Under the pieces are notes generated by a model that saw only the letters and a program-made list of their open reading frames with translations, searched no databases and was not told the DNA's origin. Made by a program: the position numbers and the translations under genes. Below, in pieces: positions 29,279 to 38,644 of a DNA stretch of 38,644 nt (positions within the stretch are counted from its first letter, which is position 1; every line of letters starts with the position of its first letter). The stretch comes from a virus: IMG/VR virus record IMGVR_UViG_3300029258_002841, positions 1 through 38,644 of that record; one strand, 5' to 3'.

Positions 29279-29353
29279 TTCTGCTCGAGTTACTCAATCA
29301 TGATCGGTATCAGAATGAAAATGATAATCATAATGATGATGATGATTTATATG
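29279..29353. repeat. 75-bp direct repeat, copy 1
   Basis: Identical over 75 bp to 29668-29742. Contains CTCGAGTTACTCAATCATGA and a run of ATGATG units. Confidence 0.97.
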
Positions 29354-29667: not shown

Positions 29668-29742
29668 TTCTGCTCGAGTTACTCAATCATGATCGGTATC
29701 AGAATGAAAATGATAATCATAATGATGATGATGATTTATATG
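29668..29742. repeat. 75-bp direct repeat, copy 2
   Basis: Identical to 29279-29353. The two copies bound a 389-bp unit that contains the terminator with loop pairing and the nested hairpin. Confidence 0.97.
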
Positions 29743-30031: not shown

Positions 30032-30433
30032 ATGGGAAGACTCAGCAAGCTAGACTCACTAAGATATGAGATGTTGACAAGGACAGCAACAGAGCTGGAT
30101 CCAGACTTCGCTCATGATCAGTGGATGGCCGTCAAAGGTTCTTGTTGCTCATATAAAGAGAAAATGAAACTTCTAGAAGAGATTATCAGTGAGATGGGCG
30201 GATCTAGCAATCATAGTAGTTTAGAAGGACCTAAAAAGACCCCGAAAATTAGAAAAATGGAGCGGAAAAGAGCTCCAAGAAGGGAAATTACTTCCTTAGT
30301 TGACGATCTTACCCCTACAGGGCAGAAATCACCACCCAAGCAAAAACAGTCTTTAGATGATCAACTTCTAGAATTGGAAACCTCATTCCATTCTCTAGTC
30401 TCACAGATCTTTAAGATACTTCGGGAAAATTGA
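30032..30433 (+). CDS. Unknown basic protein, 133 aa
   Basis: Starts MGRLSKLDSLRYEMLTRTAT. The first 65 residues are helical with a Trp and a Cys pair (GSCCSYKEKMKLLEE); the middle is basic and Pro-rich (KKTPKIRKMERKRAPRR); the end is a short amphipathic helix. Could bind nucleic acid. No ribosome site is seen before the ATG. It converges with the HNH/AP2 gene, overlapping it by 23 nt. Confidence 0.55.
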   Translation: MGRLSKLDSLRYEMLTRTATELDPDFAHDQWMAVKGSCCSYKEKMKLLEEIISEMGGSSNHSSLEGPKKTPKIRKMERKRAPRREITSLVDDLTPTGQKSPPKQKQSLDDQLLELETSFHSLVSQIFKILREN

Positions 30434-30959
30434 CTGGCGGGAAATTGAGATGCTTTTTTCTCAGGTAATCATAGAATTTCGCAGCATCCTTCTCATCTTT
30501 GAAATGTTTCTGAATATACAGCCCAAGCACTTTGTGTCTAAACTGAACCTTCCAATCACGAACTGACTTATCCCAAGTGACTCCTCTATACTTTGAAGAA
30601 CAGTTCTTCTTAGCATAAGATTTGTATTTGATCCCGTTGTGGAGATTTGTGGATTTCGTAACGACTCTCAGATTACGTCTTCTATTGTCGAGTCTATTTT
30701 GGTTGATGTGATCAATTTCGAAACCTTTAACAGTTGGACCAATTAAGATTTTATGGAGGGTCTCCGACCAGACAATCCCGCCAGAATCATTTTTAATCCC
30801 TAGAAGGTAACCTGACTGACTGGCGACCGCCCAGGTCGACCACTCGTCTAGAACATGTAAGTCCGCAGGATCCATGAGTATTTTATGAGTGCCTGTTTTC
30901 ATCCTAAGCGTAACCTCAGCATAATCGTCGACAAACTTTACAGTCTTGTTTGTTCCCAT
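30411..30959 (-). CDS. HNH homing-type endonuclease with AP2 domain
   Basis: A 182-aa protein. Residues 69-108 carry the HNH core (HKILIGP, EIDHINQNRLDNRRRNLR and NLHN). Residues 121-170 match an AP2/ERF-like DNA-binding domain (SSKYRGVTWDKSVRDWKVQF). This combination is usual for free-standing phage homing endonucleases, which spread by cutting DNA at intron-less alleles. It starts inside the preceding gene (44-nt overlap). No intron was seen at the locus. Confidence 0.85.
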   Translation of the reverse strand: MGTNKTVKFVDDYAEVTLRMKTGTHKILMDPADLHVLDEWSTWAVASQSGYLLGIKNDSGGIVWSETLHKILIGPTVKGFEIDHINQNRLDNRRRNLRVVTKSTNLHNGIKYKSYAKKNCSSKYRGVTWDKSVRDWKVQFRHKVLGLYIQKHFKDEKDAAKFYDYLRKKHLNFPPVNFPEVS

Positions 30960-31298: not shown

Positions 31299-31457
31299 AT
31301 GAGGCTAAGATTGAAATACAATGGCAGGCTTTATAGAGGTGTTTTATTAGCCATGAAATTTGGGAAGAATGGATTTTATATTGAAGTCCTAACAGAAGAT
31401 CCCAAGCCTTTGAGATTTAGTTTCGCTAAGATAGAATCTTTAGAATTTGTGGAGTAG
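31299..31457 (+). CDS. Possible 52-aa gene
   Basis: ATG 31299 directly after an in-frame stop; ends at TAG 31455-31457. The product has a protein-like alternating pattern (YNGRLYRGVLLAMKFGKNGF, then FSFAKIESLEFVE) suggesting a small beta-barrel fold. The ribosome site is weak (AAAGAAG). A stem-loop at 31459 follows immediately, which supports a real transcription unit. Confidence 0.45.
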   Translation: MRLRLKYNGRLYRGVLLAMKFGKNGFYIEVLTEDPKPLRFSFAKIESLEFVE

Positions 31458-31458
31458 T

Positions 31459-31497
31459 GAGTAAGTTTCTTTGTAGCCTTCATCTTCTAACTTACTC
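31459..31497 (+). terminator. Hairpin after the 52-aa ORF
   Basis: GAGTAAGTT (31459-31467) and AACTTACTC (31489-31497), a 9-bp stem with a 21-nt loop; only a weak T-rich tail (ATTATTCTTTG). Confidence 0.4.
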
Positions 31498-31509
31498 ATT
31501 ATTCTTTGA

Positions 31510-31565
31510 AGGGGTAGCAGGTTTCTTTTCCCCAACCGGGTTCTTTTACTTCACCTGCTACCCCT
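31510..31565 (+). terminator. Long-stem hairpin
   Basis: AGGGGTAGCAGGT (31510-31522) and ACCTGCTACCCCT (31553-31565) form a perfect 13-bp stem with a 30-nt loop. It abuts promoter-like copy 3, which begins at the last stem base. Confidence 0.6.
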
Positions 31566-31582
31566 GTAATATTCTATTAATA
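31565..31582 (+). promoter_or_regulatory. AATATTCT element, copy 3
   Basis: TGTAATATTCTATTAATA, starting at the foot of the 13-bp hairpin. No gene starts within 100 nt; copy 4 lies 106 nt further on, so a short leader transcript would be made. Confidence 0.45.
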
Positions 31583-31634
31583 TGAGCAAAACTAGCCATT
31601 TGCAACCGTTTGAATCCAGACATATTTTGCTCCA

Positions 31635-31668
31635 ACTAAGCCCTGTTGCTCCTACTTCGGGGCTTAGT
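31635..31668 (+). terminator. Hairpin before copy 4
   Basis: ACTAAGCCC (31635-31643) and GGGCTTAGT (31660-31668) form a 9-bp stem with a 16-nt loop and no T-run. Confidence 0.5.
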
Positions 31669-31670
31669 CC

Positions 31671-31701: not shown

Positions 31702-33090
31702 ATGAATACACATATTGAACATCTAGAAGAGTTAGTTTGGATGGATCGACCTAAACTCAGATCTATCCTTGAGAATCCTGTTAAAATATCCCATAAAATC
31801 GACGGCGCGCCTGCTGTTATTGTCGGACCAGGATTCGTCTCCACAAAGTCATATTTCAATAAAGAGCCTAAGATTTATTCAAAGGCAGAAGACTTTGATC
31901 AGATCAAGAATCCTCAGGTACGAAAAAAACTCAAAGTTTTATGGGAAAATCTTCCCCAAGACTTAGATGGAACTTATATGGGGGACTTCCTCTACTCGAA
32001 AGAGGATCTACTAGAAGACTCCGAAACAGTTTCTTTCTCCCCAAACTTGATCTCGTATACTGCAGAAAAAGAATCCGAAGCATATTCTAAGATTCAAGAA
32101 TCAAATCTTGGGGTTGTTTTTCATTGCAAAGTTTCTGAAGAAGGACTTCAATATGGTGTTATTCCAAATATTAATGCTCCAGAGTTGTTTACCTTCGATC
32201 CCAGAATCGATCATACCTTTCCGAACGACTGCCCTATGCAGGATCTTAATCTACTCGATATAATTGGAAGGAAATATAAACAGTCTCAATTGAATAGTAT
32301 TGGAAGATCTGCTCTAAAATACTTTAATGCTAAGATTCGAAAGGGAGAGCATAATACCTCCCCAACTGATTTTATGAGATGGTTAAGAGAGAACGATCCT
32401 AAAAAGGTACAGTTATTCTCCAAACTAAGACATTATATTTTCAATGCCTTTGAAACCTATAAAAGAGTAGAGACACTCAAGTATGAGAGAATTGATGCTT
32501 TAAAACAATACTCAATACCATTAACTGCTTCTTATAGTGGAGAAGGGTATGTTCTAAGTTATCAGAACAAAGCAACCAAGTTAGTAGACCGGTATTCTTT
32601 CTCAAGTTACAATTTTAATAACTCAAAGTTTATCCCCACTGATTGTCTGTTCTGTTTCGGAAGATTTAATCCTCCGACTAAAGCTCACAGTAAACTCTTT
32701 AAGATGTTAGAAGCTGAGAATGGTGTTCTATTCACTTCTCAATCCCACGATTACGAAAAAAACCCACTCAAATACGATGAGAAGATAGCTCTTATAAAGA
32801 AGATAGCTCCAGACTTGGAGATTATCTCGGATGAATCAATATCAACTGTATATGACGCAGCAAACTCTCTCTATGAGAAGGGTTTCGAAAAGCCAAAACT
32901 ATTGGTTGGTGATGACCGGGCAAGAGACTTTAAAGATCTTGGGGTGCCTCTTCAGATCGTTCCAAGAGATGATGTATCTGCAACAAAGATGCGTAATGCA
33001 GCGAGAAGCAACGACTTCGCTAGTTTTAGGAAGTATGCTCCTGATCTAGAACCCAGAGAGTTATCAAAGCTCTTTAGTCGCCTAAAGTAG
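31702..33090 (+). CDS. Fusion: KxDG ligase-like domain + NMN-adenylyltransferase-like domain
   Basis: A 462-aa protein. N-terminal ~300 residues resemble a T4-like/cyanophage family (HLEHLEDL..., KxDGAPAv, TKSxFNK, GDfL). KIDG at 32-35 matches motif I of ATP-dependent ligases and related nucleotidyltransferases; EGYVLSY (281-287) and the Lys of KATKLVDR (290-297) resemble motifs IV and V. From about 316 a second domain begins with CFGRFNPPTKAH (318-329), the (H/T)xxH signature of nucleotidyltransferases such as NMN adenylyltransferase, with LLVGDDRARDF (400-410) and SATKMRNA (426-433), like the ISTxxR end motif. The substrates are not known: NAD metabolism, RNA repair or capping are possible. 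No ribosome site is obvious. Confidence 0.65.
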   Translation: MNTHIEHLEELVWMDRPKLRSILENPVKISHKIDGAPAVIVGPGFVSTKSYFNKEPKIYSKAEDFDQIKNPQVRKKLKVLWENLPQDLDGTYMGDFLYSKEDLLEDSETVSFSPNLISYTAEKESEAYSKIQESNLGVVFHCKVSEEGLQYGVIPNINAPELFTFDPRIDHTFPNDCPMQDLNLLDIIGRKYKQSQLNSIGRSALKYFNAKIRKGEHNTSPTDFMRWLRENDPKKVQLFSKLRHYIFNAFETYKRVETLKYERIDALKQYSIPLTASYSGEGYVLSYQNKATKLVDRYSFSSYNFNNSKFIPTDCLFCFGRFNPPTKAHSKLFKMLEAENGVLFTSQSHDYEKNPLKYDEKIALIKKIAPDLEIISDESISTVYDAANSLYEKGFEKPKLLVGDDRARDFKDLGVPLQIVPRDDVSATKMRNAARSNDFASFRKYAPDLEPRELSKLFSRLK

Positions 33091-38503: not shown

Positions 38504-38644
38504 ATGATACCAATAGAATTAATATCAGACAACATAGAACTACTCTTAATACTATTGGGGTTAGGTGGGAAGTCTATTAAAGACTTGATCAAAGGTAAAA
38601 AGAAGATACAGAAAAAAGAATATGAGACCCTAATCTCTAAGATT
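38504..38644 (+). CDS. 5' part of the junction gene
   Basis: ATG 38504 opens MIPIELISDNIELL; from 38540 the sequence repeats position 1 onward, so the gene continues there to 291. Full length 108 aa. See the entry at 1-291. Confidence 0.75.
   Translation, partial: MIPIELISDNIELLLILLGLGGKSIKDLIKGKKKIQKKEYETLISKI
38540..38644. repeat. Terminal direct repeat, right copy
   Basis: Identical to positions 1-105. Confidence 0.97.

Follow-up and report, generated by a model that had tools for sequence, protein, structure and literature searches.

Two genes recur without explanation in marine T4-like phages, one for a DUF6267 protein and one for a "cytitidyltransferase"; roughly 450 to 510 phage records contain matches. 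DUF6267 is a phage family with no assigned function in Pfam, and none of the papers searched here names it. Commonly, the transferase gene comes straight after the DUF6267 gene, as in S-WAM1, P-RSM6, and S-SZBM1; Melnitz keeps this order, with one small gene separating the two. In S-PM2, a T4-like cyanophage, a single 591-aa ORF (A0A0M6VVW4) fuses DUF6267 to the transferase. Both the gene pair and the fusion are already in databases, and BFVD contains more fused proteins.

The window analyzed here is the whole of a virus record of 38,644 bases. Its ends (1 to 105 and 38540 to 38644) are identical over 105 bases; the record is therefore probably a complete genome, circular or terminally redundant. 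A Mu-type portal adjoins TerL (PF06074, 2.8e-12), in agreement with the Mu-like head genes noted in a preliminary description of this DNA. The TerL is a distant one, and a TerL scan of viral contigs returned no sister phages. The gene of interest (31702 to 33090, plus strand) is a real ORF of 462 aa with an ATG start and no internal stops, within an in-phase open frame of 467 aa. ORF calling, Pfam, and PHROGs identify it as a fusion of DUF6267 with a HIGH-type nucleotidyltransferase. The preliminary description had called such a fusion unexpected. It does indeed sit in a 38-kb phage with a Mu-type portal, but the same fusion occurs in S-PM2 and others. The S-PM2 protein has the same domain order; it differs in coming from a T4-like cyanophage, in its longer DUF6267 domain, and in having relatives with two separate genes. 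We propose, with a probability of roughly 40%, that the 462-aa protein is a two-domain enzyme handling adenylylated phosphate ends, a chemistry and substrate that we infer from what follows.

The N-terminal domain (residues 1 to 313; 31702 to 32640, plus strand) is DUF6267 (Pfam PF19782, 1.3e-39; 137.1 bits against a gathering cutoff of 27), and its residues 2 to 310 match PHROG 455, which is annotated as function unknown. The suggested likeness to a T4-like cyanophage family was borne out: tblastn with the 462-aa protein matched 506 phage records, most of them from cyanophages, and the domain shares the invariant residues of the cyanophage DUF6267/PHROG 455 proteins. It differs from other members in being shorter (about 310 versus about 400 aa), in being fused to the transferase, and in residing in a genome of only 38 kb. 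In the trees of both domains, the 38-kb phage copy is a deep branch. Short lone DUF6267 proteins of 295 to 303 aa, near this domain in size and with no adjoining transferase, were also seen in marine single-cell viruses and S-CREM2 (L122:2995-3888, L123:2995-3906, and L125:891-1778).

Across 49 DUF6267 sequences, K32, D34, G35, D95, E281, G282, V284, and K293 are identical in 49/49; H7, P37, G42, K49, G94, N115, Y119, G137, H141, N209, K260, and R297 are also fully conserved. The order of these residues is that of ligase motifs I (KxDG), Ia, III, IIIa, IV (EGxV), and V. Motif I is KIDG (residues 32 to 35; 31795 to 31806), with Lys32 as the predicted lysyl-adenylate site; a motif III-like Gly94-Asp95 pair (31981 to 31986) lies on strand 91-99; motif IV is EGYV (residues 281 to 284; 32542 to 32553); and motif V is KLVDR (residues 293 to 297; 32578 to 32592), all on the plus strand. 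The KIDG and EGYV motifs read in the preliminary description are thus real and not chance, since their key residues are identical in every relative. Motif spacing is 17 residues from I to Ia and 12 from IV to V; in Yasminevirus RLIG1 the corresponding values are 16 and 13 (K73, R89, E240, K253; PMC11494293). RNA ligases of the Rnl2/Rnl5/RLIG1 type (Naegleria, T4 Rnl2, RLIG1) have the same fold and motif order as DUF6267. Unlike them, DUF6267 has no detectable sequence homology to these enzymes, an invariant Asp95 at the motif III position where ligases have Glu, a helical insertion of its own, and no visible OB domain. Motif V has one Lys. According to the AlphaFold model and the alignment, the insertion spans residues 179 to 267 (32236 to 32502, plus strand) between motifs IIIa and IV, and it carries invariant Asn209 and Lys260.

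An AlphaFold model of the N-terminal domain, built from viral-contig relatives, was confident (pLDDT 89, pTM 0.85). When solved chains were realigned to it with VIA, the best 50 rows were all RNA or DNA ligases. RNA ligases led the list (Z 9.2 to 6.6), with Naegleria gruberi RNA ligase at the top (176 aligned residues, rmsd 3.4 Å) at a Z of 9.2, which barely exceeds the range that VIA calls ambiguous; T4 Rnl2 scored Z 7.5. The ligase/nucleotidyltransferase fold claimed earlier for residues 1 to 310, for which a structure search had been named as the check, is supported by that search; the lack of a ligase match that would have refuted it did not occur. In the model, Lys32 lies in the loop linking strands 28-31 and 38-42, Asp95 on its strand, Glu281 immediately before strand 283-287, and Lys293 on strand 290-294; this is the placement expected of ligase motifs. 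Sequence-based searches gave no such match. A Foldseek search of the domain against the PDB was likewise without a significant match, though its first two rows were ligases. Alignment of DUF6267 with T4 Rnl2 homologues by hhalign gave a probability of 1%, Pfam RNA_ligase was absent from the families listed for the 49 DUF6267 members, and PDB sequence searches with the single protein or the DUF6267 profile returned chance matches only. We rejected membership in the RNA ligase family PF09414/Rnl2, given the hhalign result and the lack of any PF09414 match, in the domain or elsewhere in the genome. As neither sequence nor profile comparison linked DUF6267 to RNA ligases, the ligase assignment rests on fold and motifs. 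By these, DUF6267 would act as a covalent nucleotidyltransferase with a predicted lysyl-AMP site.

Might such a domain modify a protein or small molecule rather than RNA, either by AMPylation or by adenylylating a compound for the second domain to process further? The typical substrates of both folds are phosphomonoesters, which would suit such a scheme. We saw no OB-fold or known RNA-binding domain in DUF6267, and the helical insertion with its invariant Asn209 and Lys260 differs from known RNA ligases. However, the nearest structures are nick-sealing RNA ligases, and the RNA-binding domain of T4 Rnl1 is also missing from some RNA ligases (RLIG1, PMC11494293). We regard a non-RNA target as rather unlikely and consider that the first domain most likely acts on RNA ends.

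The C-terminal domain (residues 313 to 462; 32638 to 33087, plus strand) matches Pfam CTP_transf_like (PF01467; 22.6 to 25.8 bits against a cutoff of 21; 1.3e-4) and the cytidyltransferase families PHROG 3041 and 395. Its AlphaFold model (pLDDT 93) supported the adenylyltransferase fold proposed earlier: Foldseek was significant at 2e-6, and VIA ranked phosphopantetheine adenylyltransferase (PPAT) first at Z 14.5, followed by NadD at 13.1 and NadM at 13.0. The two motifs cited for it, GRFNPPTKAH (the HIGH-type motif, residues 320 to 329; 32659 to 32688, plus strand) and SATKMR (the second nucleotide-binding motif, residues 426 to 431; 32977 to 32994, plus strand), are likewise real, with R321, P324, H329, S426, and R431 identical in 31/31 transferase sequences. 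The cyanophage "cytitidyltransferase," or NMNAT-like virion protein (PHROG 395, 3041; T4-GC190), has the same domain and motifs, at 29 to 42% identity over the aligned domain. Many cyanophage versions start with a capsid-targeting leader and are extended at the C terminus. In comparison, the 38-kb phage copy has no leader, its SAGERDPDA segment before SATKMR is shortened, and it reads T-x-A-H (Ala328 replacing Gly) where 30 of the 31 aligned sequences have T/H-x-G-H. Two transferase homologues, in KY945241 and KM507819, are annotated "ribonucleotide reductase A," probably an error carried over between records.

The preliminary description had likened this domain to NMN adenylyltransferases and had raised evasion of NAD-depleting defenses. 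In a full version of this idea, the C-terminal domain would be a true NMN adenylyltransferase maintaining NAD+ against such defenses, and the ligase-like domain would use NAD+ or recycle products. Phages are known to rebuild NAD+ (PMC9503650). Structural matches include NMNAT, NadM, and NadD (Z 13), NadR and archaeal NMNAT are weak sequence matches, and one cyanophage homologue is annotated as NMNAT. Yet PPAT, which ranks first, fits at least equally well. NMN-type NCBIfam equivalogs scored 17 versus 164 bits and 12 versus 112 bits. PPAT (CoaD), NadD, and NadM all share the fold and the HIGH/SxTxxR motifs with the domain at about 12 to 21% identity, and its acceptor-site residues fit no single substrate among theirs. 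No LigA-type Ia domain was seen, and a survey of viral NAD+ systems published in 2022 lists NadM and NadR, while "cytidyl" and "cyanophage" are absent from its text. Elsewhere in the genome we found neither NAMPT/NadV (PF04095) nor a Nudix domain, which leaves the evasion claim possible but unsupported. NAD+ maintenance is, in our estimate, unlikely as the function of this protein. PPAT would be the leading group for the substrate class suggested by the models; NMN specificity is not established, because phosphopantetheine- and NMN-adenylyltransferases fit about equally. The genome also has no match to AAA_33 (polynucleotide kinase type); with NAMPT, Nudix, AAA_33, and RNA_ligase all not found, both pathways lack their usual helpers in this genome.

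We then consider how the two domains are associated in relatives. Among the environmental and phage loci compared, the two genes were at most 500 bp apart in 29 and farther apart in 18; in another 34, the transferase was absent from the available stretch, which was often short. Fusions in environmental contigs are not confined to one order: L012 and L014 have the reverse arrangement, and in L080 DUF6267 is followed by a different HIGH-type domain in one protein. The L012 protein (L012:1015-4146; 1043 aa) consists of a HIGH-type domain, a stretch that looks HAD-like by eye (FDDT, TAR, DDS), and DUF6267. That stretch had no Pfam or PHROG match, and we discarded it as a clue to RNA 3'-end healing.

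In T4, proteins held inside the head begin with a short capsid-targeting sequence, which is cleaved after L/I-x-E (PMC9026906). Capsid-targeting-like starts were present on 53/109 DUF6267 ORFs and 36/68 transferase ORFs of relatives; shuffled DUF6267 N termini gave an expectation of 5.5/109. Other ORFs of at least 200 aa at the same loci had such starts in 67/372 cases, partly because the neighbors also look like head proteins. DUF6267 ORFs with T4-type capsid-targeting peptides were seen in marine phage-like contigs (L087 to L121, e.g., L088:7965, L094:270, and L120:1716), where several tagged ORFs around DUF6267 suggest a putative cluster of packaged proteins. The leader of DUF6267 relatives ends just before a conserved KNTHLEHLED; the 462-aa protein starts at MNTHIEHLEE, the point at which that leader ends, and has no leader ending in L/I-x-E.

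Published virion proteomes place the transferase in virions of S-SM1, S-CREM2, S-SZBM1, and S-SCSM1. Hence, transferase packaging has support from mass spectrometry as well as from leaders. DUF6267 was not in the S-CREM2 virion table, nor was it found in the text or table of the S-SZBM1 virion paper; in both phages, DUF6267 has no leader. Given these two reports, we rejected DUF6267 as a proven virion protein. A "virion protein" adjoining the transferase in S-SCSM1 was considered and also rejected, as it is not DUF6267. Judging from the leaders, DUF6267 is predicted to be packaged in those lineages that have one.

Adjacency and fusion could instead stem from membership in a common cluster of head-packaged proteins and not from a shared reaction, with the two domains working independently. 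The two genes are far apart in cyanophages ACG-2014f, P-TIM68, and S-CREM2, and the capsid-targeting-like starts on nearby ORFs are as this would predict. Fusions in both orders, and one in a phage with a Mu-type and not a T4-type portal, argue for joint use, and we consider independence improbable. The usual adjacency and the frequent head-packing tags on both proteins led us to conclude that early in infection DUF6267 and the transferase probably work as partners.

The fused gene is preceded by 257 bases whose folding z score is -5.97 against dinucleotide shuffles. Folding and inverted repeats define four stem-loops (31445 to 31670, plus strand), which may form a structured 5' leader or a small RNA. 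This stretch separates the fused gene from a 52-aa ORF and includes a 13-bp perfect arm, AGGGGTAGCAGGT. The opposite strand is likewise structured (z -4.56). A coarse genome-wide scan found similar folding scores elsewhere in the genome, and a special link between leader and enzyme is therefore only a lead. Rfam reported no family in the genome, leader included, and an exact-pattern scan of viral contigs found no copy of the perfect hairpin. Upstream of the stem-loops is a sigma-70-like promoter match (31410 to 31437, plus strand), of a kind whose count is not above chance. Farther upstream of the leader are an HNH endonuclease gene (30411 to 30959, minus strand) and a perfect 75-nt direct repeat (29279 to 29353 and 29668 to 29742; copies 389 bases apart), around which the 29.4- to 30.0-kb region holds further stable hairpins.

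How might a two-domain enzyme for adenylylated phosphate ends work? The DUF6267 domain would move AMP from ATP onto Lys32, like polynucleotide ligases, and then pass it to a 5'-phosphate, likeliest that of broken RNA, thereby activating or sealing the end. The C-terminal domain may transfer a nucleotidyl group from ATP or CTP to a small compound that bears a phosphate; as for members of the HIGH-type fold, the acceptor could be NMN-, phosphopantetheine-, or similar. Because adjacency recurs and several fusions exist, both domains may serve jointly in a single repair or takeover function early in infection. In the many T4-like relatives with a leader on both proteins, both would be injected with the DNA; in the 38-kb phage, the fused, leaderless protein would be made after entry. 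Against this reading we count the negative Rnl2, Pfam RNA_ligase, and Foldseek results, the borderline Z, the motif III Asp, the single motif V Lys, the missing OB-fold or RNA-binding domain and AAA_33, and the cyanophages in which the genes lie apart.

A bolder extension, which we hold to be doubtful, is that DUF6267 is an unrecognized viral family of RNA-end adenylyltransferases/ligases that marine T4-like phages package and inject with a HIGH-type partner as a repair or counterdefense kit, here fused and perhaps joined by the structured RNA at 31445 to 31670. As far as our sources show, two elements are new: the assignment of DUF6267, with its invariant site, to a ligase fold, and the occurrence of capsid-targeting starts on both partners. 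Together with the pairing, the fusions, and the predicted copackaging, the ligase fold and invariant lysine site recast what were two hypothetical proteins as an enzyme pair open to testing, for which the single-chain protein of the 38-kb phage would be a handy construct for substrate identification.
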